This document shows positions 4,121 to 18,010 of a DNA stretch of 64,000 bases, piece after piece; position 1 is the stretch's first letter; the number at the start of each line of letters is the position of its first letter. This DNA is from an uncultured Phycisphaerae bacterium. GTDB lineage: Bacteria; Planctomycetota; Phycisphaerae; Sedimentisphaerales; Anaerohalosphaeraceae. The position numbers and the translations under genes were made by a program. Below the pieces are notes generated by a model. It was not told the origin of the DNA, did no database searches, and saw only the letters and a list, made by a program, of their open reading frames with translations. Location of the stretch: contig CALEDR010000021.1 in the NCBI GenBank assembly GCA_937949545.1, forward strand, positions 1-64,000. Reading direction: 5' to 3'.

Positions 4121-6883
4121 ATGACGAAAAAAGGACTACAATCCGGTTTTCGACGGAGTGTCTATTCCCGCCGCACACTTGCGGTCGTGTTCCTGTTTTT
4201 TGCGCTGACCCTGTTGGGGATAGCCGCCGGAACCGGTGTCGTTTGGACGGTAAGCCGCTCGTTCGGACATTCTTTCTCACTGGACCGGCTTCCGCCGGCC
4301 TCGCTGATTCCGTGGCTTTTGTTGGCTAATTCCACCGGGATTGTCCTCTTTTGGCTCATCGCCCTGAGCGTCATCTATCTCATCCACCGGAAAAAGCGAC
4401 CTCTGCTGCTGTCGGTCCAACAGGACCTGCCGAGCCGAATCATCGATGATTTGTCCGTCCCGATGTTTGTGGTGAACCAGAACCACGTTGTGACGCACTG
4501 GAACCGGGCCTGTGAAAAACTGACCGGCATCCACGCCGGCAGGATTCTCGGCACGCAGCGGCATGGACAATACCTCGGCGATGAAAAGGGCTGGACTCTG
4601 GCGGACTGGATTCTTCGGGAAGCTTCTGCGGAAGAAATCCAGGCTGTCTATGGCCCCTCATTCAAAAGCAGCAATGTGCTGAAAGGAGCTTATGAAGCGG
4701 AGCGGTTTTTCCCGCATCTGGGCCCTTCCGGCAAGTGGCTGTCTATGACGGCCGGACCGCTTCGCGACCCGCAGGGCGCCCTGACGGGCGCCGTCCAGAC
4801 CCTTCAGGACATCACCCGGGCCAAACAGCACGAGCAGCATCTGGAAGACACCCTGCATACGGTGGAAAAACTTTTCCAGCGGGCTCCGGTCGGTCTGTTC
4901 GTCGTGGACAAGACCCGCACCATTCGGCGCGCCAACAGCGCCGCTCTTCAGATTTTGGGAAAGAAAGCCGAGGAAATCATCGGCGGGACCTGCTGCGGAA
5001 TTCTCTGCGGTCAAAATCATACGTCCTGCCCTATTCTTCACGAGGGGCATACCTTCGAAGAAGAAAAAGTATCGTTGCCCGGTCCCGGGGGCAGGACGAT
5101 TACCATTCTGAAAAATGCGTTTCCCATCACCCTCGAAGGCCAGGAGGTACTGATTGAGGCCTTCATTGACATCACGGAAATCGAAAAGGCCCAGGATGCC
5201 ATTCGGCGGGAATCAGCCAAGCTGTCTGCCATGATTGCCGGGATGCAGGAAGGCGTTGTTTTCGCCGATGCCGAGGACACCATCGTGGAAGTCAATCCGT
5301 ACTTCCTGAAACTGGTCAACAAGAACCGGGAGGACCTGCTCGGCAAAAAATTAGCGGATGTTCACCCGCTTCAGATTCAGGCCCGAATCAAGCAGATGAT
5401 TCGCACATTTCGGGACAATCCCCACAGCGAGCCGGTGATGATTCGCCGGGAGTTATTCGGGCGAATGATCGAAATGCGGATTCAGCCGATTTACTGCCGC
5501 GACGGGCTTTATATGGGCATTCTGGCCAACCTGATTGACGTAACCGAGCTGGTCCGCGCCAAAGAAGCGGCCGAAAGCGCCAACAAAATCAAAAGCCAGT
5601 TTCTGGCGAATATGAGCCACGAAATCCGCACCCCGATGAATGCTGTTCTGGGCTTTTGTGAACTGCTGGCCGCCACAAATCTGGACGAAGAACAGAAAGA
5701 TTATGTGAACGTCATCAGCAGCAGCGGGCGAAATCTCCTGCAGATAATCAATGACATTCTCGATTTTACGAAAATCGAAGCCGGCAAGCTGACCATCGAT
5801 AAAACCCAGTTTGCGCTCGAGCCGTTCCTCTGTCATATCGAGCAGATGATGAGGCCGATTGCGGCCAAAAAGGGACTCGATTTTGAATTCCTCAAGGGCG
5901 ACAATCTGCCCGAAATTGTTGAAACAGACCCCATTCGGCTCAATCAGTGTCTGATTAATCTGATTGGAAATGCCATCAAATTTACGGAATCCGGATATGT
6001 CCATGTAACCGTCAGCTGGGAGGAGCGTCCCGGGGAAGACGGACGTTTGTGCATCGACATCGAAGACACCGGCATCGGGATTCCCAAGGAAAAGCAGAAA
6101 CTGATTTTTGAGTCGTTTACGCAGGCCGACGCCTCCACCACACGCAAATTCGGCGGAACAGGCCTGGGTCTGTCCATCACGCAAAAACTGATTCATCTGA
6201 TGGGCGGCGAACTTTTCCTCCACAGCCAGCCGGGTCAGGGGTCTGTCTTTACCGTCGTTCTGCCGGTCCGTTTGACCAATGCACCCTTCCAGAAAGAGCT
6301 GGACTTCAGCGCCGATACCCGGATGCCGGAGTATTCCGCCGGGATTCGCAGCGATCAGGTCTGGAGCAGTCAAGGCGAAGACGTCGTCCAGCCGGCGCGG
6401 ATTCTTGTAGCCGAAGACAGCCGGGCCAATCAGACACTTCTGAAAAAACTGCTCGAGCGATACGGGTTTGAGGTCACCCTGACCGCCAACGGCAAGGAAA
6501 CGGTCCGGATGGCAATGCGAAAAGAATACGATTTAATCCTGATGGATATGGAAATGCCGGTGATGACGGGGTATCAGGCCGCGGGCATCCTGCGCAAACA
6601 GCAGATTAAGACACCGATTGTGGCTCTGACCGCCAATGCGCTCCAGGGCGATCGCGAAAAATGCCTGGCCGCCGGGTGCGACGATTACCTCTCCAAACCC
6701 GTCAAAGCGGAAGAATTAGCCCGGATTCTCGAAAGATATCTGTCCCGCCGTGTTAAGGAACTGAAAGAGCAGACGGACAGCCTTCGCAGCCAGGCCGAAG
6801 ATTTGGCTCGGCAGGCAGACCCGTCTGTCCGGAAAGACCGGCCGTCCTCCTCCCCCGCTTCTCCGCAAAGCAGTCAGGACTGA
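4121..6883 (+). CDS. membrane hybrid sensor histidine kinase/response regulator with PAS domains
   Basis: A 920-residue two-component sensor. Two membrane segments (about 19-45 and 62-88) have only a short loop between them, so sensing is probably intracellular or in the membrane. Three PAS-type domains follow at about 105-235, 245-350 and 365-480; the second has a Cys-rich stretch ([16 protein letters not shown]) that may bind a metal or redox group. The HisKA phospho-site is in [10 protein letters not shown] (H500), the ATPase has [12 protein letters not shown] and [10 protein letters not shown], and the receiver has Asp809 in [11 protein letters not shown] plus the Lys of YLSKPV. The Ser/Gln-rich tail looks unstructured. 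No partner regulator is adjacent, so the output target is unknown. Confidence 0.93.
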
Positions 6884-6961
6884 GCCGGGCAGAAAAACCC
6901 ATCCAGTTTTTTTAAGGGCAATCCCTATCAGAAAGCCGCCGGAAGGGAAACGGCATTGCTC

Positions 6962-7888
6962 TTACAACGCCTCGAGAATGGCCTGGGCAATGGCTGAAGC
7001 AAGGCGGCTCTGGAATTCGCCGTCATACAGAATCGCCGCCTCCGACGGATTCGAGATATAGCCGCATTCAATCAAGACCGCCGGGCCGTTGGTCCGAACC
7101 AGAACGCGGTAATCGTTGGTTCGCAGGCCGTTGCTGGTCAAGCCCGTCTGAGTCAGGTACCGTTCAATCAGCCGCCCGGCACGCCGTGATTTCTCCGAAG
7201 CATTGGGAGAAATATAAACAGTAAACCCTCGATGGGCCCGGTTGGTGTGGGAGTTGTGGTGAATGCTGACAAACAAATCGGCCCCGGCTCGATTGGCAAT
7301 CTCAGGCCGCTCATTCAATTCAATGAAGGTGTCGTTATTGCGGGTCATAATCACATTGACCCCCTGCTTCTTCAGCAGCCAGGCAACTTTCTGAGCCACC
7401 TTCAGATTAACTTCCTTTTCATAGTATCCCAGATAGCTGGTTGCCCCCGGGTCTTTTCCGCCGTGGCCGGGGTCAATCACAACAGTCTGCCCGCCGCTCG
7501 GCCGTGAAGGAGTCGAGGGATATTGCGGCCGCGGCTTGACCGGGGCCGCCGTCTTCAGATACGCGCGAATCTGGGGCATGAGCATCTGAGAGACATAAAT
7601 CGTCTGGCCCTCGTAAATCACTGTGCCGGTCTGGCCGATATTCTGCCCATTGACATAAATACTGCCGCCGGGATGCGTAAAGATCACAACGCGGTTGGCG
7701 GCGTTGGTCAATTCGACATAGCGGCCGGCGGTAAATGACACCTGCAGGCCCAGCCGAGCGGCCAGCTGCTCGACGGAAATCATATAAGGCGGCGTCGAAG
7801 GGGCTGCCCGTTCCGGGGGCGCCTGACAGCCGCTCAGAATGAGTCCCAAGACACAAAAACCAACGATTCCAACCCAAATTCTCGGCAT
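6962..7888 (-). CDS. N-acetylmuramoyl-L-alanine amidase lipoprotein (AmiC type)
   Basis: A 308-residue enzyme that cuts the stem peptide from peptidoglycan. It has a lipoprotein signal with lipobox LILSGC at about 16-21. A copper-amine-oxidase-N-like domain follows (about 38-110, with VELTNAANRVVIF and IYVNGQNI), which is often a wall-binding module. The catalytic Amidase_3 domain shows VVIDPGHGGKDPG (zinc His), YEKEVNL (zinc Glu), VSIHHNSH (zinc His) and the catalytic Glu in LIECGYISNPSEA. It probably acts in daughter-cell separation or wall turnover in the periplasm. It stands alone, converging with the kinase gene. Confidence 0.92.
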   Translation of the reverse strand: MPRIWVGIVGFCVLGLILSGCQAPPERAAPSTPPYMISVEQLAARLGLQVSFTAGRYVELTNAANRVVIFTHPGGSIYVNGQNIGQTGTVIYEGQTIYVSQMLMPQIRAYLKTAAPVKPRPQYPSTPSRPSGGQTVVIDPGHGGKDPGATSYLGYYEKEVNLKVAQKVAWLLKKQGVNVIMTRNNDTFIELNERPEIANRAGADLFVSIHHNSHTNRAHRGFTVYISPNASEKSRRAGRLIERYLTQTGLTSNGLRTNDYRVLVRTNGPAVLIECGYISNPSEAAILYDGEFQSRLASAIAQAILEAL

Positions 7889-8013
7889 AGCGAGTCCGTT
7901 TTATGACTGTTTCCAGAAAATCACTTACGAATCTAATCGGTTGACCCCGTCATCCGGCTTCAAATATTCGGTTGTGTATCGGTCAGGCAAGAAGATGTCA
8001 ATGAAAAACAAAA

Positions 8014-8044
8014 GAAAAAAGGCCGCTGACACAGCGGCCTTTTT
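8014..8044 (-). terminator. rho-independent terminator, probably bidirectional
   Basis: A perfect 9-base stem, AGGCCGCTG (8020-8028) and CAGCGGCCT (8032-8040), with a three-base loop. It is flanked by an A run (8014-8019) and TTTT (8041-8044), so each strand ends in U's. It lies 23 bases beyond the stop of the PEP-CTERM gene, which it should terminate. Confidence 0.85.
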
Positions 8045-8066
8045 GGAACTTGCAAATGAAAACCCC

Positions 8067-8789
8067 CTATCGTTTCCGCGCGGCCGTCAGGGCGCCGACT
8101 GTCAAAAGCAGCATCGAAGCCGGTTCGGGAACCACTCGAAAAGCAAAGACTGCTGAAGCGGATATGGGGGTTTGGTCTGCCAAAAATGCCTCCGCCGTCC
8201 ATTCGATTTCATAAAGCCCCGGAGCCGAAAAGCCCCAATTGTAATGGCCGTGCAGACCCGCCCGCACAACCAGTTCATAGGCCGATGCCGGGTCAAACGT
8301 GGAGACGTACACTACCGGCATCCCGAAGGCATCCATCTGCCACAAGCTGAAATGTCCAGGACCGTTCACGACAGCCGCCCTGATGGCGACAGTGTCATTC
8401 AGCAGCAGCTCCAGCGGAATCTCCTCCGTGCCCAATCCGAGGAGGGGAATCTCCTCGTGACCGCCGTCTCCATGATGGTGATGCTGAGGAAGAACCCAAA
8501 GAGGCATACCGGCGCCTGTGCCAACAAAGTTCCATTCGGAACCGTCGGGCCGGAGTAACACCGCATGATCCGGCACAACAATCAAAACGGCATCCGGCTC
8601 GAATTCTCCCGATACGTCGGGAACCCCTCCGATGCAAGCATCTTCGGCGTGAAAATGAAACTCCGGTCCGCCGTCGTGAAATCCCAGCCCGATATCCGCA
8701 TGACCGGACGTGTATAGGAGGGCTCCCTGTGCATTTGAAAAAACCAACATCATTCCTGCATACAAGAAACAATACATCCAACATTTCAT
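8067..8789 (-). CDS. PEP-CTERM sorting-domain protein, function unknown
   Basis: A 240-residue exported protein with an N-terminal signal peptide (about 1-22) and a C-terminal PEP-CTERM tag: VPEPASMLLLTVGALTAARKR (motif, hydrophobic helix, basic tail). That tag is recognised by exosortase and usually directs proteins to the surface or into an extracellular matrix. The body has repeated Gly-His-rich loops (PQHHHHGDGGHEEI) and WNFVGTGAGMPLWVLPQ. A choice-of-anchor or metal-binding role is possible but unproven. Its middle resembles the neighbouring dockerin protein (HFSLWQ, LHGHYNWGFSAPGLYEI), so the two are likely paralogs with different anchors. AAAGGA is 7 bases before ATG 8789. Confidence 0.85.
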   Translation of the reverse strand: MKCWMYCFLYAGMMLVFSNAQGALLYTSGHADIGLGFHDGGPEFHFHAEDACIGGVPDVSGEFEPDAVLIVVPDHAVLLRPDGSEWNFVGTGAGMPLWVLPQHHHHGDGGHEEIPLLGLGTEEIPLELLLNDTVAIRAAVVNGPGHFSLWQMDAFGMPVVYVSTFDPASAYELVVRAGLHGHYNWGFSAPGLYEIEWTAEAFLADQTPISASAVFAFRVVPEPASMLLLTVGALTAARKR

Positions 8790-8846
8790 GGTTTGTTCCT
8801 TTTCTGTGAGTAGGGTTTTTTGTTTTTTTTACACATACAACTTTTT

Positions 8847-9797
8847 TTACAGACACTCAGACGGAAAAGGGCTCCCGCAGAAAAGCCACTGGTCGGCCAA
8901 GCTAGAAAGGTCGGCCGGATCGACCCGTCCGGACTGATTCAAATCGGCCCCGCCGCAACTGTTGGGGTCTGTACAGCCGCTTTGCAGCCAATAGGCGGCA
9001 ATGACGGCGGCATCCGAGAGATTGACCCGACAGTCGCCGGTCATATCCGCCGTCAAAGCCGAGGAGCACTGATAAAAGGTGCTCAGCTGCAAATCAACTT
9101 CGTAAAGACCGGGTTTTGTAAATCCCCAGTTCAGATGAGTATGGGCACCGGCCTGATAATAATACACATCCTGCTCGGTAATCCCGCCGTCATACGTGGA
9201 GAAAAAAACCCGCGGCTGTCCGAAGGAGCCGGTCTGCCAAAGAGAAAAATGGCCCCCCTGCGGCCCGCGGACATCCAGCAGCCGGACCCGAAGCCAGCGG
9301 GCGGGCGTATCAGCCCTTCCGGCATCCTGCGGATTCCACAGACAAAGCCCGCTGAGCACATCCGCGGTCATCTGTCCGGAATTGAACCCCAGCCAGAGCA
9401 CGCCGCTCAGATAGTTCTGCGGGAGGACCCAGATGGTTTGACCGGGGGAGGCGCCGAGAAAGGCAAAAGCCGGCGAGGAGGGCATCGTCATCCGAGCCAG
9501 CGGATTTACAAAAAGCACAGCCCGCTGCGGCGGGATTCGGCGTGCTCCGCCGCCCGGCAGGTCATTCGGCGAAACGGCGAAATCCCATCTGCACAGGCCT
9601 TCGCCGCACAGGTACGGTGTGCTCAAATCCGTATGGAAGCCGTCGATGACCTCCATCTGGTTGGGGTCCGGAAAGGCCGTTTCCACTCCGAAATAAAACG
9701 TAACAACCGGGCTGTCCATCCGCACGCAGTGCGTCCCGGCCGCCTGGACCGCCAGACTCAGCCACCCGGCAATCATCAGACCTGTATGACTGTTCAT
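8847..9797 (-). CDS. secreted dockerin-type protein, paralog of the PEP-CTERM neighbour
   Basis: A 316-residue protein from ATG 9797, chosen because AGGAAAGG lies about 8-12 bases before it; an upstream in-frame TTG at 9827 lacks a site. It has an N-terminal signal, and a body sharing HFSLWQTGSFGQPRVF and HTHLNWGFTKPGLYEVDL with the gene at 8067. The C-terminus holds two dockerin-like calcium repeats (DCRVNLSDAAVIAAYWLQ and DLNQSGRVDPADLSSLAD). This suggests a shared body fold joined to two different surface-attachment modules. It is followed 57 bases later by the PEP-CTERM gene on the same strand. Confidence 0.82.
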   Translation of the reverse strand: MNSHTGLMIAGWLSLAVQAAGTHCVRMDSPVVTFYFGVETAFPDPNQMEVIDGFHTDLSTPYLCGEGLCRWDFAVSPNDLPGGGARRIPPQRAVLFVNPLARMTMPSSPAFAFLGASPGQTIWVLPQNYLSGVLWLGFNSGQMTADVLSGLCLWNPQDAGRADTPARWLRVRLLDVRGPQGGHFSLWQTGSFGQPRVFFSTYDGGITEQDVYYYQAGAHTHLNWGFTKPGLYEVDLQLSTFYQCSSALTADMTGDCRVNLSDAAVIAAYWLQSGCTDPNSCGGADLNQSGRVDPADLSSLADQWLFCGSPFPSECL

Positions 9798-9836
9798 ACG
9801 TGCTATCCTTTCCTGATTCAAAAACAATCCGTCACC

Positions 9837-10550
9837 CTATTCCGGCGGTTTGGCAAAATCGACGCCAGCCTGCGCCTTTTGATGAAGCTGTGCGGCCGAA
9901 ATCGTCTCTACATGGGCATCTGCAAACAGATAATTGGCTGAACCCCGTGTCTGGTCAGGCACTGAAAAGCCGGTTCGATGACGGTCGGGCTGAATATCCC
10001 GACAGATGCGGTCCCACGCCCGCCCGTCCTGTACGGAAAACCACTGCCGACTGTGCGTATGATCGGAGGTGATGCTGACGGCGGCCTGGTCAGAGATTTC
10101 AAAGGCCGTCATCGTTTTGGAGGCCAGTTTGAGCTGATACAGATTCGTGTAGGACTTCAGCGGACGCCCGAAAGGGTCCGCATGGTCCACAGCCACGTAC
10201 TCATTGAGGATGTAGGAACTGAGCTGCTCACGTAGGCGCTCCGTCCGTTTGGCATCCGCCGGACAAATTCGCACGGCATCGACCTCCTGAAGAAAGCCGG
10301 CCAGCGTGTAAATCCAGCTTTTGTCCGCCGTCTGACCATGCGTCGTTTCCGGGAAACGTCCCCGATTGGCCTGCGCGTAAAGAATGACGGCCGTTCCAAT
10401 CTGGTGCAGATTCGAAGCGCAGGACAATCGCCCCGCCAGCATCCGGGCGGCACGCAGCCCCGGTAAAAGCAGAGAAATCAGCAAGGCCAACACCGCCATT
10501 ACCGCCAGCAGTTCAAGCAGCGTAAAGGCGCTCCGGCATTGTTCGCGCAT
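9837..10550 (-). CDS. type II pseudopilin-like protein (prepilin-type N-terminus)
   Basis: A 237-residue protein from ATG 10550. It has the prepilin cleavage signature SAFTLLELLAVMAVLALLIS and SCASNLHQIGTAVILYAQ, the common Phycisphaerae pseudopilin arrangement. The C-terminal SANYLFADAHVETI matches the H-X9-DG-like ending, with DA in place of DG. Such proteins are processed by prepilin peptidase and are numerous in planctomycetes; their individual roles are unknown. It lies 39 bases upstream of the dockerin gene on the same strand and is probably co-transcribed with it. Confidence 0.85.
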   Translation of the reverse strand: MREQCRSAFTLLELLAVMAVLALLISLLLPGLRAARMLAGRLSCASNLHQIGTAVILYAQANRGRFPETTHGQTADKSWIYTLAGFLQEVDAVRICPADAKRTERLREQLSSYILNEYVAVDHADPFGRPLKSYTNLYQLKLASKTMTAFEISDQAAVSITSDHTHSRQWFSVQDGRAWDRICRDIQPDRHRTGFSVPDQTRGSANYLFADAHVETISAAQLHQKAQAGVDFAKPPE

Positions 10551-10712
10551 ATGGGAATCATCCGCCGAAACAAATTCTTTTAGATTCCGACAGAACAGAA
10601 AAGCCCTTAAACACTCCCCTGCCGCAGAGAGTTCACGGATTTCCGGCTTCACGAGCAGCAAAGATCCGGCACGGTCGGTTTGGCGAACGGCGGCAGGGTT
10701 TGTTAAAAGGCC

Positions 10713-11060
10713 CTAAAATGCGAAGGGGTCACAAGCCGGCGGACCGCGTCGGGTTAGACAGGACGGAACCGTTTGAAAAAAGAACCCGTCGTTTGCAAGA
10801 AGAAAAATATTCTGCAGAAATCGGATTCCGGAGAAAGCGGAGCTGCTCTCCGCCAAGCAGGAAGCCAAATTGCAAAAAAGAATCTGACAAGTCCGGCAGG
10901 AGCGGCTTTCATGTTTCTGATTGGAAGGGTCGGACGGCCCGGACTCCTCGGCCGAACAGACATTGTGGGAACACTGCCAGCGATGAAGGGCCATCAGTCC
11001 GCCGGACACAAGACCGATGTGAATCACCAGACAAAGCCGGACCAGGCGGGTTCTATTCAT
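10713..11060 (-). CDS. small Cys/His-rich membrane-anchored protein in a metal-regulated operon
   Basis: A 115-residue protein from ATG 11060, supported by GGAGGG about 9 bases upstream and an 8-base overlap with the Fur-family gene. A hydrophobic N-terminus (about 5-25) is followed by a Cys/His segment (HRWQCSHNVC, then KHESRSCRTCQILFCNLASC). CxxC plus His spacing of this kind suggests metal binding at the outer face of the membrane. The C-terminal half is less structured. I know of no named family. Operon position implies a role in handling the metal sensed by the regulator. Confidence 0.6.
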   Translation of the reverse strand: MNRTRLVRLCLVIHIGLVSGGLMALHRWQCSHNVCSAEESGPSDPSNQKHESRSCRTCQILFCNLASCLAESSSAFSGIRFLQNIFLLANDGFFFQTVPSCLTRRGPPACDPFAF

Positions 11061-11496
11061 CCCCAAATCCCTCCGTTCGGCAGTTCGGGCAAATGCCCTC
11101 CAAACGAGTCTGCCGATGCAGCACAAGATATCCGGCCGGCAGATTCTGGACAGCCGGCACAACGGCCTGATAAAGACAGACCGTCCGGCCGCAATCCCGA
11201 CACGTAAAATGAGGATGGCAATGATCGGGCTTGCAGTGATGGGCAAGTTCAAAATGCCGGATGCGGTTTCGCAGATAGGCATGGTGGACAATATCGTGCC
11301 GGAGCAAGAGCAGCAAAGTCCGATAGACCGTGGCCTTATCCACAGATGCCGGCGTTATCCGGTCAAAAATCTGCTCCCCCGTCAGCGGACTGTCCGCTGC
11401 CAGAAGAACACACAGAATCTCCAGACGAGGCCGGGTCTTCCGCAGCCTGCTTTGCTCAAGCAGCTGTTCAGCTTTTTGGAGGTGTTCTTCCGTCAT
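11053..11496 (-). CDS. Fur-family metal-responsive repressor (possibly Zur-like)
   Basis: A 147-residue regulator from ATG 11496, which overlaps the stop of the upstream gene as ATGA. The N-terminal winged helix contains KATVYRTLLLLLRHDIVH. The metal-sensing part has HHCKPDHCHPHFTCRDCG, and a second CxxC comes in ICPNC, giving the structural four-Cys zinc site of the family. The His/Cys-rich sensing loop and the His-rich transporter-like partner favour zinc or a similar metal over iron, but this is inference. It probably represses its own operon through the palindrome at 12311-12337. Confidence 0.9.
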   Translation of the reverse strand: MTEEHLQKAEQLLEQSRLRKTRPRLEILCVLLAADSPLTGEQIFDRITPASVDKATVYRTLLLLLRHDIVHHAYLRNRIRHFELAHHCKPDHCHPHFTCRDCGRTVCLYQAVVPAVQNLPAGYLVLHRQTRLEGICPNCRTEGFGDE

Positions 11497-12257
11497 CCCA
11501 GAGTCCGTTCCGGTGAATCCGAGGAAATCGGATTTTCTTTGCGGCCGCAGAGAATACACTGATGCCCGAGATGAGCCCCGTCGGCCCGGACAAACAAAAG
11601 CGGAAACACAATGTCGCTGATGCAGCAGGGAATCCAGACAGCAATAAAAAGAGCCAGAAACATCCCGACCAGCAGCGTAACGCTCCAGTCGGCGTGTGTG
11701 TTCATCAGCATATGACTGGACGAGGCCCAGGTGCTGACCAGGACATGAAGAGCATGCGGGTATTTGGTCTTGGGGACAAAATACGCAATCACAATCCCCA
11801 GAATGGCGGCGGGATTGACCAGCCACCATTCCTCGATAAAGCCCAGATGTAGCCGGGGCTTGTGGTCATGGTCCTGATGGTCTTCACAGACGCCCTCTTC
11901 GTGAATATGTGCATGAACAGCGGCTTCCGTCGGAACCGCAACCCCAAGAATGCTTTCCCCGAAAAACGGAATCACACTGTCGCTGATGGTGGCCACTCCA
12001 ATAGACCCAAGATAGCCGATCAGCAGAATCAGAAGGAAATTTTCGGCTTTTCGATGCAGCTGAAAAAGGGCCGCCGTGACCATCGCACTCAGGAACACAT
12101 GCAGCGGATGAAAAATCGAGAAAAGGACATGCCCTCCCTCCACCCCAAACCGGCGAAACAGAAGCATAAAGACAATCCCGGTGAGGGCACCGAAAATGGT
12201 AAAAGGAGAATGCTCCCTGAGTTCCCGAACGATTAAACGCAGTTTTTCGTACCTCAT
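11493..12257 (-). CDS. multi-pass membrane protein with His-rich loop, putative metal transporter
   Basis: A 254-residue protein with about six hydrophobic segments (19-38, 43-66, 73-96, 145-160, 165-185, 192-222). A hydrophilic loop is packed with His, Glu and Asp (VHAHIHEEGVC, EDHQDHDHKPRLH; about 112-135). Membrane His and Cys (HPLHVF, WIPCCISDIVFP) could line a path. The arrangement resembles predicted heavy-metal exporters, though it is shorter than the 10-helix type. GAGGAG is 9 bases before ATG 12257. As the first gene after a Fur-type operator it is probably induced by metal shortage or excess. Substrate and direction are unknown. Confidence 0.75.
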   Translation of the reverse strand: MRYEKLRLIVRELREHSPFTIFGALTGIVFMLLFRRFGVEGGHVLFSIFHPLHVFLSAMVTAALFQLHRKAENFLLILLIGYLGSIGVATISDSVIPFFGESILGVAVPTEAAVHAHIHEEGVCEDHQDHDHKPRLHLGFIEEWWLVNPAAILGIVIAYFVPKTKYPHALHVLVSTWASSSHMLMNTHADWSVTLLVGMFLALFIAVWIPCCISDIVFPLLFVRADGAHLGHQCILCGRKENPISSDSPERTLG

Positions 12258-12310
12258 AAGAACGTTCTCCTCGAAAAGACCCCATTAAACAACCGAAAGC
12301 AGAAGGATAC

Positions 12311-12337
12311 TCTTTTTGCAAATGATTTGCAAGAAGA
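12311..12337. promoter_or_regulatory. Fur/Zur-type operator palindrome
   Basis: A perfect inverted repeat TTGCAAATGATTTGCAA (12316-12332: 8 bases, one central base, 8 bases) extends to 13-1-13 with a single mismatch. The size and odd central base are typical of Fur-superfamily boxes, and the sequence is close to Zur boxes of other bacteria. It lies 54-80 bases upstream of the membrane protein start at 12257, and 19 bases before the -35 of the divergent promoter at 12356-12383, so both directions could be controlled. Confidence 0.72.
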
Positions 12338-12355
12338 ATTTCCGTTTTTTGTTAC

Positions 12356-12383
12356 TTGAAAGCGATATATTTTGTCGTATAAT
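12356..12383 (+). promoter_or_regulatory. strong sigma70-like promoter for the lipoprotein gene
   Basis: TTGAAA at 12356-12361, a 16-base spacer, and a perfect TATAAT at 12378-12383. Transcription would begin near 12390, about 30 bases before ATG 12420, which has AAAGGAG just upstream. This supports 12420 rather than the upstream in-frame codon at 12372, which would sit inside the promoter. Confidence 0.75.
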
Positions 12384-12419
12384 AACGATGGACAACAAGA
12401 GGGAAAAAAAGGAGCAGTT

Positions 12420-12971
12420 ATGACTTCTATTCGTATGGGTTTACTTTGCTTCTGCTTTTGTGCCGCGGGGTGCGGGTTCGTCAAAGATATGCGGCAGCAG
12501 ATTGCCGACAGTTCAGCCGCCGTCCAGGAGAATATTCAAGCCATACAGGCCAGCACCCAGGTGGTGGAAAAGAATCGGGCGGTTCTTGAGGAAACCACCT
12601 TCGCTCTTCGAGAAGCATCCGAGGCAATGGAAGAAATATCCCGGGCGCTGCGTCAAAGTGCTGAGGCTCTGCGCGCGGCCAATGAGGCCATCCTGGCCAA
12701 CCAAAAAACGATTGAGGACAGCACACAGGCCATACAAGCCAATTGGGAAGCCGTAGAACAAAGCACAAAAGCGATTGAACAGACCCGGCAGAAACTGCAC
12801 GCCGTCCTGACGCCGCTCAAATCGATAAAGGTCCCGCAGACACTCTTTGCCGCGGCAGGAGGTTTTCTGCTCGTTGTGCTCGTTTTGCCCTCTATTCTCC
12901 TGCTGCTTTTGGTTCTTCGGACAGGCCGAACATCACCGCCCCCCGCAGCTTCATCCAGTCAAAAAAGCTGA
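12420..12971 (+). CDS. coiled-coil lipoprotein with C-terminal membrane helix
   Basis: A 183-residue protein. The signal ends in a lipobox (FCAAGC, Cys15). A long Ala/Glu/Gln-rich coiled coil follows (about 20-135) with repeats of the form AIQASTQVVEKN, AILANQKTIEDSTQAIQAN and AVEQSTKAIEQT, roughly heptad-based. The protein ends in a hydrophobic helix (about 142-168) and a short Pro/Ser tail. It may bridge membrane and wall or line the periplasm as a filament, but I do not recognise a family. Its promoter neighbours the Fur-type operator, so it may share that control. Confidence 0.8.
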   Translation: MTSIRMGLLCFCFCAAGCGFVKDMRQQIADSSAAVQENIQAIQASTQVVEKNRAVLEETTFALREASEAMEEISRALRQSAEALRAANEAILANQKTIEDSTQAIQANWEAVEQSTKAIEQTRQKLHAVLTPLKSIKVPQTLFAAAGGFLLVVLVLPSILLLLLVLRTGRTSPPPAASSSQKS

Positions 12972-12983
12972 GTCTTGGTCCGC

Positions 12984-13610
12984 TTAATTGAGCAGGCTTT
13001 TGGCCAAATCGACGGCGGAGGCGGCATCAGGAGCATAGCCGTCAGCGCCGATTTTGTCGGCAAAGTTTTGGGTGACGGGCGCTCCGCCGACCATTACCTT
13101 GCAGGACAATCCCGCTTCGCGAATGGCCTGAATGGTTTTGTCCATGGCGGTCATCGTTGTGGTTAAAAGGGCGCTGAGGCCGACAATCTGGGCATTGGTG
13201 CTTTTGGCCTTTTCGACAAAGGTTTCCGGGTCCACATCGACGCCGAGGTCCTCCACTTTAAATCCGGCGCCTTTGAGCATCATGGCCACAAGGTTTTTGC
13301 CGATGTCATGCAAATCCCCCTGGACCGTTCCGATCACGGCCTTGCCGATGGGGGCCACGCCGGCGGCAGCCAGTTTGGGCTCGAGCAGCTCCATCGCCAT
13401 TTTCATCGCCCGTCCGGCAATCACCACCTGCGGGATGTAGATTTCATTGGCTTTGAAGCGGACTCCGACCACATCCATTCCGGCGATCAGTCCTTCATTC
13501 AGGATAGTCTTCGGAGAAAGGCCCTCCTCGAGGGCTTCTTTTGTCAGACGAACCGATTCCGTCGGATTGCCGTCAATGACGGCCTGCGCCAGTGCCTTCA
13601 AATCTGCCAT
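12984..13610 (-). CDS. methyltransferase-cognate corrinoid protein
   Basis: A 208-residue B12-binding protein with an N-terminal helical cap (about 1-88) and a C-terminal Rossmann-like cobalamin domain. The lower axial His motif is DLHDIGKNLVAMMLKGAGF (DxHxxG, about 100-118), followed by GLSALLTTTM and GGAPVT. Such proteins carry a methyl group on cobalt between two methyltransferases in anaerobic methanol, methylamine or O-demethylation pathways. AGGAG is 7 bases before ATG 13610. It lies 66 bases after the zinc methyltransferase gene, its likely partner. Confidence 0.92.
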   Translation of the reverse strand: MADLKALAQAVIDGNPTESVRLTKEALEEGLSPKTILNEGLIAGMDVVGVRFKANEIYIPQVVIAGRAMKMAMELLEPKLAAAGVAPIGKAVIGTVQGDLHDIGKNLVAMMLKGAGFKVEDLGVDVDPETFVEKAKSTNAQIVGLSALLTTTMTAMDKTIQAIREAGLSCKVMVGGAPVTQNFADKIGADGYAPDAASAVDLAKSLLN

Positions 13611-13676
13611 AGCTGACTCCTGAAAGAACGCTGTAAAGAAGGTATTATATCTCCTGCAGGTCTGCTTTTCAATGCA

Positions 13677-14762
13677 TCATTTTCGGTTTTTTGAAGGATT
13701 CTGCCGCCAGCAGCGGGCTGTTTCCATAAAAGCAAGAAGATTCTCCAGAGGGACCGTCGGCGGCAAATCGCAGCCGGTGCCCAGGATAAAATTCGGATAA
13801 TCCTGCATCTGTTCGAGCAGTTCCAGACAAGCCGTACGCACCTGGTCCGGGGTTCCATCCTGCATCACGGCTACCGGATTGATATTGCCGATGACGAGCA
13901 CATCCGGGCCGGCTTTCTGGGCCGCCAGCGGAAGATTGACACCGATTTGCGGGGAATCGAGGTTGAGCGCGGATACGCCGGAGCGGGCCATGGCTTCAAT
14001 CAGATGCATGGAATTGCCGCAAATATGGTAAATGGTATCTGCACCGGTATGGCGGACCGAGTCGATGATTTGCCGGACATAAGCGGCACTGAACCGCTCG
14101 AATTCAGCGGGGCCGATAATCGCCGCTGTCGGTTCAAGAATGCACAGCAGATCCGCCCCGGCATGAACCAGCGCTCTGGCGTAGGGCTGGATGACACCGG
14201 TTGAAAACTGACAAAGGGTTTCCACCTTCTCGGGGTCCAGAATGGTATCGGCGGCAATCGATTCGGCTCCGGCCAGCAATCCCGACAGCGTAAAGGGTCC
14301 GATGACATAGGCCCCGACCAGCACCTCCTCCGGAAGACCCGTGCGAAGCATCTCAATGGTCTTAATATAAGAACAGATGCGGGAGTCCTGCAGGATATTG
14401 ATTGGGCGGAAGGGGCGGAGGTCTTCAATCGTTTGAACCGGGTGATATTCGACGGTGCTCGAATCGTGAACGGGAAATCGAACCGGAAGACCGAGGGCGT
14501 TGGCCTCTACGGACAGGTCCATCATCATAAAGGCGGCATCGGGACGAAGTTTTTCAACCATGGCGGCAATGCATTTGTAGTGGATGCCGTAATTCTGCTG
14601 GGCTACTTTGATGGACACGCTCATCCAGCTGCAGGCCGGAAAGCCCACCAGCGGAGCGGCCAGCCGACGGCCCTGCTGATAAGCCTGCCGCACCCGCCGC
14701 CGCAGAGCCCCCTCTGCAGAAGGGGCTCTTTGCGGCTCTTTGGACAAAACAGATGTCGCCAT
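13677..14762 (-). CDS. UroD-fold corrinoid methyltransferase (MtaA/MtbA-like)
   Basis: A 361-residue protein of the uroporphyrinogen decarboxylase superfamily. It has the zinc-ligand pattern of cobalamin methyltransferases: HxC in IYHICGNSMHL (about 246-248) and a distal Cys in ILGTGCDLPP (about 329). True heme-pathway UroD lacks these ligands. The partner corrinoid protein follows on the same strand, supporting methyl transfer rather than porphyrin synthesis. AGGAGG is 4 bases before ATG 14762. The methyl donor or acceptor cannot be read from the sequence. Confidence 0.85.
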   Translation of the reverse strand: MATSVLSKEPQRAPSAEGALRRRVRQAYQQGRRLAAPLVGFPACSWMSVSIKVAQQNYGIHYKCIAAMVEKLRPDAAFMMMDLSVEANALGLPVRFPVHDSSTVEYHPVQTIEDLRPFRPINILQDSRICSYIKTIEMLRTGLPEEVLVGAYVIGPFTLSGLLAGAESIAADTILDPEKVETLCQFSTGVIQPYARALVHAGADLLCILEPTAAIIGPAEFERFSAAYVRQIIDSVRHTGADTIYHICGNSMHLIEAMARSGVSALNLDSPQIGVNLPLAAQKAGPDVLVIGNINPVAVMQDGTPDQVRTACLELLEQMQDYPNFILGTGCDLPPTVPLENLLAFMETARCWRQNPSKNRK

Positions 14763-14945
14763 TAAACCTCCTGAATATTCACAGTCACCTTGGGATTAAA
14801 TCGCTCAGGTATTCAATCAAATTCAGAAACACAATGCTTTGCTTATTTTCTTATTTATTTGTACTATATTGCTGTTTCTTATTTCGAAATAACGTGTTAT
14901 AACCGAAGAATACATATTTTCGATTTATAATTATATTATCTTGCT
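14763..14945. promoter_or_regulatory. AT-rich divergent control region with palindromes
   Basis: This gap between the divergent methyltransferase and regulator genes is far richer in A and T than its surroundings (14815-14945). It holds a perfect 14-base palindrome TTATTTCGAAATAA (14879-14892) and an 8-base palindrome GTTATAAC (14896-14903), candidate binding sites for the PocR-AraC regulator. A TATTAT at 14934-14939 lies six bases before the regulator's ATG. Confidence 0.5.
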
Positions 14946-16256
14946 ATGACCGAAAACAAGACAATCGATGTCTGCAAAATATCTTCCTTCATCCGACGGG
15001 ACCTGTTTGATTCCATTCACGAACGGTTTCGGAGGCATTACGGCCTCAGCATCGAAACAATCGGGACAGACGGCAGACGAATCCCTGGATTGTGTTCGGA
15101 CTCTTGCGAGCCGACTTTTTGCTCTTATATCCGGAAAAATCCCGCGGCGCGAAAACGCTGTCTGCAGGAGCGGCTGCGCAGTCTGCATATGGCTTTTGAG
15201 ACGGGTCAATCCTATACAGCGCTGTGCCATGCCGGGATTTTATTCAGCTGTATCCCGATTATGCATCGAGAGACCCCATTGGGCGGGATGCTGACGGGCA
15301 AATGCCTTTCCGAACCGTTCAATGAAACCATCGGGCAGGATATGCTCAAACGGCTGGCCGGACTTCGCTTTTCCGCCGAGCGGCTCTTCGAAGAGGCCCG
15401 GTCTCTGCCGATTACCAGCGGACGGCTCCTCCATGAGGCGGTCGAGTTTCTTTTTATCCTGGTCTATGAAACGGCAAAACTGGACCCGCATGTGATCGAA
15501 TGGAGACAGCGGCAGACCGCCCAGCAGGCCCACATCGGGGAACTCATTCAGGAACACAAACAGGCCGGCTTGGAGCAGGGGTACCCTTTTGAACTGGAAA
15601 AGCGGCTGATTGCCAAGGTCCAACTTGCCGACAAATCCGCCGACGACCTCTTGAACACGCTTTTGGCAGGCATACTCTTCCACTCTCCCGGGCAGGTCAA
15701 CATTCTGAAGATTCGTCTGACGGAGCTGCTGGGGATTTTGAGCCGGGCGGCGGCAGAGGCCGGAGCGGACGCCGAAACGCTGCTGGAAAAAAACGCTTCC
15801 TATATCAGCAAAGTCATCTCCCTGCAGAGCCAGGAGGAAATCTGTCTTTGGTTCAGCGTGGCGGTTCGGGAGCTGATTGACTGTGTTTCGGCCGCCAAAA
15901 AACCGAGCCGCCTGGAACGGCTGCAGCCGGCCCTGGAGTTTCTCCAGCAGCACTTTCGCGAACGAATCACGCTGGAGCAGATTGCCCGCTCGGCCCATTT
16001 GAGCGTATCCCGACTGTGTCATCTGTTTCAGGAACGTTTGCAGACAACCGCCGTCGCCTATCTGAATGAGCTTCGCATCAACTGGGCCAAGCGGCTGCTT
16101 TCAACCACAGAGAAAACCTGTCTGGAGATTTGTTATGAATCAGGATTTGAGAATCTGAGTTATTTTAACCGAACTTTTAAAAAACTGACTGGGCTTACGC
16201 CCAGCCAGTTTCGCAAACAATATCATCCGGCTGCCTCAATGCCGGCGCGGGCATAA
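14946..16256 (+). CDS. AraC-family activator with PocR sensory domain
   Basis: A 436-residue regulator. The N-terminal PocR-type domain (about 10-165) has the Cys pattern LCSDSCEPTFCSYIRKNP, KRCLQE and ALCHAGI, thought to hold a metal or ligand in the family. A linker of about 150 residues follows, then two AraC helix-turn-helices (about 330-430): ITLEQIARSAHLSVSRLCHLF and YESGFENLSYFNRTFKKLTG. PocR-AraC proteins typically turn on B12-dependent or diol catabolic genes. It is divergent from the corrinoid methyltransferase pair. No Shine-Dalgarno precedes ATG 14946, and an in-frame stop at 14928 excludes an earlier start. Confidence 0.9.
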   Translation: MTENKTIDVCKISSFIRRDLFDSIHERFRRHYGLSIETIGTDGRRIPGLCSDSCEPTFCSYIRKNPAARKRCLQERLRSLHMAFETGQSYTALCHAGILFSCIPIMHRETPLGGMLTGKCLSEPFNETIGQDMLKRLAGLRFSAERLFEEARSLPITSGRLLHEAVEFLFILVYETAKLDPHVIEWRQRQTAQQAHIGELIQEHKQAGLEQGYPFELEKRLIAKVQLADKSADDLLNTLLAGILFHSPGQVNILKIRLTELLGILSRAAAEAGADAETLLEKNASYISKVISLQSQEEICLWFSVAVRELIDCVSAAKKPSRLERLQPALEFLQQHFRERITLEQIARSAHLSVSRLCHLFQERLQTTAVAYLNELRINWAKRLLSTTEKTCLEICYESGFENLSYFNRTFKKLTGLTPSQFRKQYHPAASMPARA

Positions 16257-16265
16257 AACACCGTC

Positions 16266-17777
16266 CTAATCAATTTCCGCCGGCGTCAGGAAGTCGTAGC
16301 ATTCAAACGGAATATTCATCTCTTCCGCCAGGGCCTTCAAATCCGCCAGATAATCACCGAAGACGGTCATCGGATGGTTCGTGTTGACCTTCCATTCGAT
16401 CCGTCCGCACAGTTTGAGATACCACTGCGGCCAGTCGCGGCTGCACCGCTCGGTGCGCCGGAGCCATTCTTCCTCCGACGGAACATCCGTCTTGCCGCGC
16501 CCGGCGCACAGATACAGCTGATGATTGCGATAGCTGAACCGGGCCCAGGTGACCACGCCGGGCTTGCGGACTACGACGGAACAGGTGCCGCCGCCGGCTT
16601 TGAAGTACATCGGGGTCTGGCGCTCGGACCAGGCGCCTTCGAGCGAATCGTCGCGTCCGTAAGCAAAATAGGGAGCCAAGGCGCCGGAGTTGACAAACCA
16701 GTAAAGCATTGTATCGGGCTGCCAGTACCGCAGGTCGTTAAAGCCGACGGGTTTTCCGCCGGTGAGCAGTTTGAGCACCTGCATAGTCAGAGCGGCCCCG
16801 TCATCGGCCTCGGTGGCGGCGACAAAGGTCGTGCCGTCCCCTTCCGGACGAAGGCGGTTGTTCAGGATACCCAGCGTTAAATCGGTCGTCGGATAATGTT
16901 CAATCCAGTCCAGCTGGTCCTGCACCCCGATAAAATCCAGTCCAAACTGCTTTTTAAGCTCCAGCAGGGCACAGTACACCTTCATCTGAAACAGAACCAT
17001 CTCTTTGGTCAATTCAGTTTCGGGATTGGTGCCGAGGACAAAACGCATTTTATTCTGCACGAGAAAATCGAAGGCCTGCTGCGCCCGCTCATCGGGGATG
17101 CGTTCGGCCATCTTCAGCAGACGCAGGCCGTCAAAGCCGAGTTTGGCAATGCCGAAATAGCGGAGGAAATCGGCCTCGGATATCTTGTTCCACATCTCCA
17201 TCGAGCGGGGACCGACGGTTCCGTACACCATACCGGACAGCTGTTTTTTGACTTTTTGGGCCTTTTTGCGGCTGGCATCGGTGACCTTGATTTCGATAGA
17301 CTTGGGATACTTAGGGGCATATCGGCCCTTGGTCAGAAAGATATCGAGGGCCTCTCGATAGGTATCGTACTCCTCAAACTTCTCCACAAACAGCCGGCTG
17401 GTTTTGATGCCGACATGCTCGGTGCCGCCTGCGGCCGCCAAAAGCCCCACAGCGCCGGGAAAATCCGGAATGGCACTGCCCAAAAGGAGCTTGGGGGTGT
17501 CTTTGGGGAGCTGCCACATTGGACTGACGGAAAAATCCGGATAGGCCCAGCCGGCCATAAAATTGATAAAGCGGCTGCCTTTGGCCTTTCGGATCACCCG
17601 CAGCCCTTCGGCTACACTCGAAACCGGCTTGTCAGGATTAAGGATATTCGGCTGCCAGCCCAAACTGCGAATGACCTTTTTCAGATGCTCCAGCTGAGGT
17701 TTGGCAACCGCCATGACGACTTCGTTGGGTTTTTCCCGTGCATCCAGAGGAATGTAGATATCCACTACCTTTTTCAT
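16266..17777 (-). CDS. L-fucose/L-arabinose isomerase-family sugar isomerase
   Basis: A 503-residue protein from ATG 17777 (AAAGGA about 8 bases upstream). The fold is that of fucose/arabinose isomerases, with GPRSMEMWNKISEAD in the middle and the metal-site segment ATEADDGAALTMQ, plus KPVGFNDLRYWQ. It is shorter than typical FucI (about 590 residues), so the substrate may be a different aldose. The neighbouring GH95 fucosidase and KDPG/KHG aldolase favour a deoxy-sugar or uronate role. It is convergent with the PocR regulator (9 bases apart) and divergent from the phosphoesterase. Confidence 0.75.
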   Translation of the reverse strand: MKKVVDIYIPLDAREKPNEVVMAVAKPQLEHLKKVIRSLGWQPNILNPDKPVSSVAEGLRVIRKAKGSRFINFMAGWAYPDFSVSPMWQLPKDTPKLLLGSAIPDFPGAVGLLAAAGGTEHVGIKTSRLFVEKFEEYDTYREALDIFLTKGRYAPKYPKSIEIKVTDASRKKAQKVKKQLSGMVYGTVGPRSMEMWNKISEADFLRYFGIAKLGFDGLRLLKMAERIPDERAQQAFDFLVQNKMRFVLGTNPETELTKEMVLFQMKVYCALLELKKQFGLDFIGVQDQLDWIEHYPTTDLTLGILNNRLRPEGDGTTFVAATEADDGAALTMQVLKLLTGGKPVGFNDLRYWQPDTMLYWFVNSGALAPYFAYGRDDSLEGAWSERQTPMYFKAGGGTCSVVVRKPGVVTWARFSYRNHQLYLCAGRGKTDVPSEEEWLRRTERCSRDWPQWYLKLCGRIEWKVNTNHPMTVFGDYLADLKALAEEMNIPFECYDFLTPAEID

Positions 17778-17944
17778 CGCCGCTTCCTTTCTGCTTCTAT
17801 CGATGTTCGTACAAAAGGCCTGTGCCCCCCTTGCGGAGGCGCTGCCGGACTGAAAGCTATTTTCTGCGACGAGCAGCGGCCCGTCCAGAGTTTTTTTTTC
17901 TGACCTGCTGTTCAACAAATCAAGGACTGTATCGGCCTTTGAGA

Positions 17945-17974
17945 TTGATAAACTTCCCTTCGCCGGTCTATACT
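17945..17974 (+). promoter_or_regulatory. sigma70-like promoter for the phosphoesterase gene
   Basis: TTGATA at 17945-17950, an 18-base spacer, and TATACT at 17969-17974. The predicted start is near 17981, giving a 30-base leader that contains AAAGGAG at 17994-18000. It lies in the 233-base divergent gap between the isomerase and phosphoesterase genes. Confidence 0.65.
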
Positions 17975-18010
17975 GCGGAGCAAATAAAAACACAAAGGAG
18001 ACCAAAGAAA

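Follow-up and report, generated by a model that had tools for sequence, protein, structure and literature searches.

The locus considered here raises two questions: which metal is sensed by a Fur-family regulator encoded in a tight operon, and what is done by the histidine-rich membrane protein whose gene stands in front of it. The window, i.e., the whole stretch of 64,000 nucleotides that was analysed, carries the operon on its minus strand, as six genes that run from 12257 to 8067, are preceded by a palindrome and end at a terminator-like hairpin. Quite probably, the six genes make up a Zur-repressed zinc-acquisition operon, in which the membrane protein is most likely an inner-membrane zinc carrier and a surface set probably captures zinc. 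Zinc uptake is poorly annotated in uncultured planctomycetes and related phyla, which gives the locus its wider interest.

Operon layout and candidate promoter

The features of the operon, from the predicted operator to the terminator-like hairpin, are:

12316-12332, no strand: predicted Zur operator, perfect 17-bp palindrome TTGCAAATGATTTGCAA (8-1-8)
12304-12309, minus: candidate -10 hexamer TATCCT (4/6), 6 bp past the operator
11493-12257, minus: membrane protein gene, 254 aa, 18 His
11053-11496, minus: Fur-family regulator gene, 147 aa, overlapping the membrane gene by 4 bp
10713-11060, minus: small Cys/His protein gene, 115 aa, 9 Cys and 4 His, with an 8-bp overlap with the regulator gene
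9837-10550, minus: pilin-like gene (pseudopilin, DUF1559/SBP_bac_10-type) with an N-terminal methylation motif
8847-9797, minus: secreted choice-of-anchor M gene with a C-terminal dockerin domain (NF038134, 104.6 bits)
8067-8789, minus: secreted His-rich choice-of-anchor M gene with a PEP-CTERM anchor (NF038134, 96.6 bits)
8016-8044, minus: terminator-like hairpin, 13-bp stem and T-rich tail, the probable operon end

The first-pass annotation had reported a 17-base perfect palindrome, extensible to 13-1-13 with one mismatch, upstream of three coupled genes, and both observations hold. The 27-bp form occupies 12311-12337, is centred on base 12324 and has exactly one mismatch; the membrane gene's start codon follows the palindrome at a distance of 58 bp, and the three genes are joined by the two overlaps given above. 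Perfect 17-bp palindromes are not rare per se, with four in the window; 27-bp palindromes with one mismatch are rare, and the second of the two found in the window is the operon's own terminator-like hairpin, at 8030. The operon extends beyond the three named genes to six. Genes four, five and six are preceded by gaps of 162, 39 and 57 bp and are all co-directional, and the interval 6800-10800 yielded no promoter-like site on the minus strand. Searches for Rfam RNA elements in 6000-16000 and for tRNA genes within the window returned none.

An amidase-like gene (named by eye, 6962-7888) comes next after the operon. In two relatives of the same genus (L015 and L043) the amidase-like gene directly follows the regulator, so that the small protein, pilin and surface-protein genes look like a cassette inserted between regulator and amidase in the lineage of the window. 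Choice-of-anchor M genes are likewise located between regulator and amidase in another relative, G004.

On the other side, a divergent plus-strand gene (12372-12971), coiled-coil lipoprotein-like, adjoins the operator; a strong promoter-like site of its own (TTGAAA-16-TATAAT, 12356-12383) lies 24 bp from the operator, and the gene might share operator control. Next to it, the region 12984-18005 encodes a corrinoid (B12-binding) methyltransferase-type protein, a uroporphyrinogen-decarboxylase/MtaA-like protein, an AraC-type regulator and a large isomerase-like protein, and looks like a B12-dependent methyl-transfer cluster. The labels PerR-like, RibF, UreH-like, CbiM-like and corrinoid cluster were given to neighbouring genes from their sequences, partly without a family search.

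Within the candidate promoter, the distal half-site TTGCAA of the palindrome falls in the -35 position relative to TATCCT, with a 17-bp spacer, and relatives show the same geometry. A TATAAT-like hexamer (at least 5 of 6 matching) begins the stretch's promoter pattern in 36 of 57 boxed loci (L094 left out), where it occurs in the first 30 bp past the box, as compared with 4/57 in the next 30 bp beyond. In 31 of these 36 the hexamer begins 5, 6, 15, 16 or 17 bp past the box, which puts one or other half-site (TTGCAA/T) in the -35 position. The window's own candidate, TATCCT, is weaker. Half-sites at -35 fit with repression, and a repressor covering the -35 element would be the simple reading. 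When zinc is plentiful, the Zur-type repressor would thus occupy the palindrome and block the -35 region, turning off the regulator itself together with all six genes; when zinc is scarce, it would leave the palindrome, and the zinc-acquisition set would be made.

Conservation of the box, the regulator and the metal

Upstream of orthologous operons the palindrome recurs as TGCAACTNAGTTGCA. The membrane gene is present in 113 of 148 relatives, many of whose genomes are incomplete; the species-genome collection yielded 114 stretches with the gene, of which 80 were retained, and boxes were counted over 103 non-redundant loci with the membrane gene, a box being defined as no more than one mismatch from TGCAA-N5-TTGCA at most 300 bp upstream. 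The first-pass annotation had staked its reading on conservation of the palindrome in front of orthologous operons, and the palindrome is indeed conserved there: a box precedes 56 of 57 loci with a fur-like gene downstream versus 1 of 38 without (eight loci were too short to judge), these rows not being independent, because the regulator-less loci come mostly from other phyla. Random 300-bp control windows contained a box in 14 of 1,521 cases. Loci with neither box nor regulator are found within planctomycetes too (e.g., L052, L057 and L060). The two exceptional loci are L118, unboxed in spite of a regulator, whose Fur-family protein differs from the rest and lacks the CHPHF motif, and L094, boxed and without a regulator, whose palindrome is poor. 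In L103 and L104 (Tritonobacter, deltaproteobacteria) the regulator precedes the membrane gene, and the box is upstream of the regulator.

Exact copies of TGCAACTNAGTTGCA were found in 73 of the 148 relatives, and the reversed pattern in none. Of the 75 exact sites listed (the per-genome counts total 81), 61 stand in front of the membrane gene, at distances of 24-228 bp. What relatives conserve is the 17-bp core; the 27-bp extension is not part of the conserved unit. Within the genus of the window the inner bases AACTNAGTT have changed to AAATNATTT on both arms (L013, L014 and L043, compared with L016 and L017), and the L016 box is an asymmetric intermediate between the two forms. Joint change of both arms is as expected under selection on operator symmetry, and this drift inside one genus offers a natural test of a change in Zur specificity.

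The first-pass annotation suggested looking for the same palindrome at other genes of this genome, and none turned up. The pattern TTGCAAATNATTTGCAA occurs once in the 2.84-Mb genome, with no second box at two or fewer mismatches. The remaining eight matches carry three mismatches (the reversed-pattern control gave three matches), several of them lie inside open frames (L006, L007, L009, L011 and L012), and reading the flanks of all eight revealed no recognisable zinc gene. Zinc specificity therefore rests on the relatives, in which the box does stand at zinc genes.

The 14 of the 75 listed TGCAACTNAGTTGCA sites that are outside membrane-gene promoters were fetched and read individually. One box (L155) precedes a gene for ZnuA (PF01297, 227 bits) followed by ABC-transporter genes, i.e., znuABC. 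Three others (L157, L158 and L160) precede a ZIP transporter gene, with PF02535 over its cut-off in all three genomes; the membrane gene was searched for in these genomes (G135, G085 and G071) and not found, and a regulator of the same subfamily follows the ZIP gene in L157 and L158. At L154 (G121:C332) the box precedes a DUF2946-like gene and then a ZepA-family protein (173 bits), the only above-cut-off ZepA among the 148 genomes. A pilin gene and two choice-of-anchor M genes follow the box in L153, a DUF2946-like gene and a secreted protein in L161, and the regulator and a DUF2946-like protein in L165. The sites L156, L159, L162 and L166 have no clear target, three of them being at contig edges. 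As side observations, the boxes of L163 and L164 are upstream of OprB-type porins, near Ni/Co-type transporter-like genes (neighbours named by eye), and the porins are possibly a zinc-regulated outer-membrane entry; and in L165 and L166 the box precedes a C4 zinc-ribbon coiled-coil protein (CT398/CdsZ-like), which may be one more Zur target.

Operon context in relatives points the same way as these separate targets. Two operons (L063 and L084) read membrane gene, regulator, DUF2946-like gene, coiled-coil/porin-like gene and ZnuA gene, with one further short gene in between in L063 and an ABC-3 gene too in L084; on seven contigs, an ABC-3 gene and the membrane gene are no more than about 6 kb apart. 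The consensus box also equals the predicted Desulfovibrio Zur box ATGCAACnnnGTTGCAT described in PMC545781, and, as literal strings in open-licence PMC papers, TGCAACNNNGTTGCA was matched by PMC545781 alone and TTGCAAATNATTTGCAA by none. Given the box at znuABC, ZIP and ZepA genes, the operons with ZnuA and ABC-3, and the Desulfovibrio box, zinc is by far the best reading of the metal of this operon, judged from sequence comparison.

The regulator has the Fur-family domain PF01475 (48.9 bits, cut-off 23.1). Its structural Cys4 site (C99, C102, C136 and C139) is invariant in an alignment of 27 sequences. Of the residues considered for a Cys/His sensory site at the domain interface, C88 is conserved in 72 of 74 regulators, and H94, H96 and H71 are nearly invariant. 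The C88-C99 spacing of 11 is that of C79-C90 of ScZur in the numbering used in PMC6103462, and in the HMMER alignment C88 falls off the C88 of EcZur. The E. coli-type Zur equivalog NF008646 scores 35.5 bits on the regulator against a cut-off of 167, which suggests a Zur-like regulator of another subfamily. None of the NCBIfam equivalog models reaches its cut-off on the regulator, and its best matches among solved structures are a mixture of Fur, PerR and Zur, the closest-scoring chains being named Fur; the metal is therefore not fixed by the regulator sequence alone. In relatives, however, the box is upstream of known zinc-uptake genes, and on this ground Zur is the best reading of the regulator, and zinc acquisition that of the operon. 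The genome's two other Fur-family genes have rubrerythrin-, ferritin- or peroxidase-like genes as neighbours (named by eye), and their products look PerR-like.

The membrane protein and the surface proteins

The first-pass annotation placed the membrane protein outside the well-known transporter families, and our searches agree, with no significant relative in Pfam, NCBIfam or PDB. There is no match to PF02535 (ZIP) at E-values up to 1 and none to PF00950 (ABC-3/ZnuB); a single-sequence search against solved structures found no relatives, and a profile search of the family gave one chance-level match (E 0.44). Titles and abstract openings found in searches of the open-licence PMC literature contained no description of the family. 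Its members occur in Planctomycetota, Omnitrophota, Elusimicrobiota and deltaproteobacteria.

In an alignment of 74 family members, H16, H50, H53, D93, H168, H171, C211, C212 and D215 are invariant, the conserved motifs are HxxHVxxS, SDxxxP and PCCISD, and the conserved His, Asp and Cys residues are located within the membrane. AlphaFold2 predicts six long helices both for the window protein (pLDDT 84.3, pTM 0.80) and for a short homologue (pLDDT 89.3, pTM 0.86). HxxHVxxS is on helices 2 and 5, and SDxxxP on helices 3 and 6, the latter pairing having been read from sequence. An internal repeat is likely, with moderate statistical support: a home-made profile alignment scored 12.3 and beat 300 of 300 shuffles (mean 7.4, sd 1.2, maximum 11.8), and hhalign gave P 0.005, yet its 60 column shuffles included at least one with a higher score. 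Foldseek found no significant match for either model. In VIA, for which a Z of roughly 13 is the level of trust for helical bundles, TRIC cation channels came clearly top, though below that level, for both models, with Z 8.0-9.1 over 132-143 residues (rmsd 3.2-3.7 A) for the first and Z 8.5-10.3 over 130-133 residues (2.8-3.2 A) for the second. Comparison with BbZIP gave Z 5.2 for 8j1m (149 residues aligned, 3.9 A) and Z 4.8 for 7z6m (135 aligned, 4.2 A).

A pattern-defined loop of the protein varies with the regulator. With a regulator downstream it is mostly 22-94 residues long and has several histidines (50 loci measured), versus mostly 10-11 residues without one (42 loci); a large number of homologues, from Omnitrophota and other phyla, combine the short loop with the absence of both zur and box. 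Judging from family, context and residues, the six-helix protein most likely moves zinc across the inner membrane, with the intramembrane His, Asp and Cys as ligands along the path and the His-rich loop as a collector. It is likely a new kind of zinc importer. As to the genome itself, no ABC-3 (PF00950) or ZnuA gene was found, ABC-3 being present in 84 of the 148 relatives. A ZIP gene is located elsewhere in the genome, away from the box, so that the membrane protein is not the only candidate importer; the idea that it is the sole importer, argued from absence of ZIP, was rejected on this ground.

The small protein has one N-terminal hydrophobic helix, a CxxC and a C-terminal GPPA tail. It resembles, below Pfam cut-offs, the DUF2946-like proteins found in the same place in relatives; it has no match to DUF2946 (PF11162) itself, and those proteins score 15.5-20.6 bits, under the gathering score of 23.7. 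The pilin-like protein matches PF07596 (28.1 bits), and a similar gene lies beside the surface-protein genes in L153. Both window surface proteins are above the NF038134 domain cut-off of 55 bits and have no match to the ZepA model NF040463 (cut-off 75 bits) at E-values up to 0.01; no ZepA was found in the genome. Choice-of-anchor M proteins, for which searches of the open-licence PMC literature found no description of function, occur in 13 of the 148 relatives (over cut-off in 10). Ten of the 13 have their nearest copy 0.4-2.0 kb from a membrane gene or box, on its downstream side; the distance is about 20 kb on one contig in G146, in G115 the copy is on a different contig, and G042 has weak matches in very long frames and no membrane gene. 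Two other types of secreted protein flank the pilin-like gene in the same place in L046, L059, L067 and L068. These unnamed His-containing types of the zur operon (L067, 5613-6515 and 7347-8180; L046, 5197-5943), with the sequences HTHIGINPTW... and CPLDHLIIGCNRDG..., gave weak dockerin or PEP-CTERM signals and no other family in Pfam and NCBIfam.

The membrane-anchored CxxC protein, the pilin-like protein and the choice-of-anchor M proteins most likely catch zinc outside the inner membrane and hand it on. We give about equal weight for and against the broader proposal that the membrane protein founds a new class of inner-membrane zinc importers with a 3+3-helix pseudo-repeat, each half having HxxHVxxS and SDxxxP as ligand motifs, and that in this lineage it forms the inner end of a capture relay of pilin, choice-of-anchor M and CxxC proteins under one Zur switch.

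Alternative readings and known systems

The first-pass annotation spoke of an autoregulated metal uptake or export unit, of which the autoregulated metal unit is supported and the evidence favours zinc uptake over export. Both CxxC and His-rich loops are known in exporters too. It is nevertheless highly improbable that the membrane protein exports or detoxifies zinc and is turned on by Zn-Zur as an activator, since the membrane gene shares operons with ZnuA and ABC-3 genes and is replaced by ZIP in relatives. The precedent for such an arrangement is Caulobacter, in which Zur activates a zinc export operon headed by a DUF2946 gene, from a site upstream of -35 (PMC4176598); here the box is on the -35, and 31 of 36 loci have a -10 at the distance expected of a promoter. 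A unit for another metal (Mn, Fe, Ni or Co) sensed by the Fur-family protein appears comparably improbable. It could draw on the ambiguity of the regulator sequence, whose best solved relatives are Fur, and on the porin boxes near Ni/Co-type transporter genes, but it must account for a box that in relatives is common to znuABC, ZIP and ZepA genes and that is identical to the published predicted Zur box (PMC545781). The other two Fur-family genes of the window's genome look PerR-like.

Unlikely, too, is a Zur operon in which the membrane protein is not a transporter and, for instance, acts as a membrane chaperone for zinc, helps to assemble the surface proteins or stands in for another protein so as to spare zinc. 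The protein has no family name or confident fold match, and in some operons its gene is alongside those for ZnuABC, where an accessory role may apply. Against this stand its six-helix polytopic build with invariant H50, H53, D93, H168, H171, C211, C212 and D215, and the relatives in which a ZIP transporter takes its position in the operon. With zinc import by the membrane protein as the preferred reading, an orphan, strongly conserved membrane family becomes tied to the Zur response, and the consensus box becomes usable for mapping planctomycete zinc regulons.

As a probable Zur operon the unit is ordinary in kind; it is unusual in content, in its multi-phylum membrane family, a probable zinc importer, and its proposed capture set of pilin-like and choice-of-anchor M proteins. 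The predicted Zur regulon of Desulfovibrio (PMC545781) shares operator architecture and half-site with the window, and likewise has a Fur-family gene in a transporter operon; there, ATGCAACnnnGTTGCAT is upstream of znuABC-zur, whereas here the box, TTGCAAATGATTTGCAA in the genus, precedes the unnamed six-helix protein. ZIP importers (ZupT) take the same place behind the box in three relatives, with the regulator next in two, but differ in conserved motifs, and the membrane protein has neither their PF02535 domain nor more than a VIA Z of about 5 to BbZIP. Any likeness to TRIC channels would be one of fold alone, at VIA scores below about 13, with no significant Foldseek match and no sequence relationship shown.

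Extracellular zinc capture also has precedents. ZepA (All3515) represents an experimentally supported family of Zur-repressed zinc exoproteins (PMC10957091), and both systems have secreted PEP-CTERM proteins that are linked to Zur and encoded near an amidase and a Fur-family gene; in relative G121, one true ZepA lies behind an identical box. The window differs in that its surface proteins are NF038134, not NF040463, and in that their genes stand together with those for a pilin-like and the new membrane protein. The idea of protein-based zinc scavenging outside the cell would thereby be extended from ZepA to choice-of-anchor M proteins. In C. diphtheriae, Zur represses an anchored-repeat ABC importer along with surface-anchored proteins (PMC6711530), a combination of importer and surface proteins like the one proposed here; anchoring there is by Gram-positive sortase and the importer is ABC-type, in contrast to PEP-CTERM or dockerin and a non-ABC membrane protein in the window. 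The related models TIGR03769, TIGR03772 and TIGR03773 are matched by the window surface proteins.
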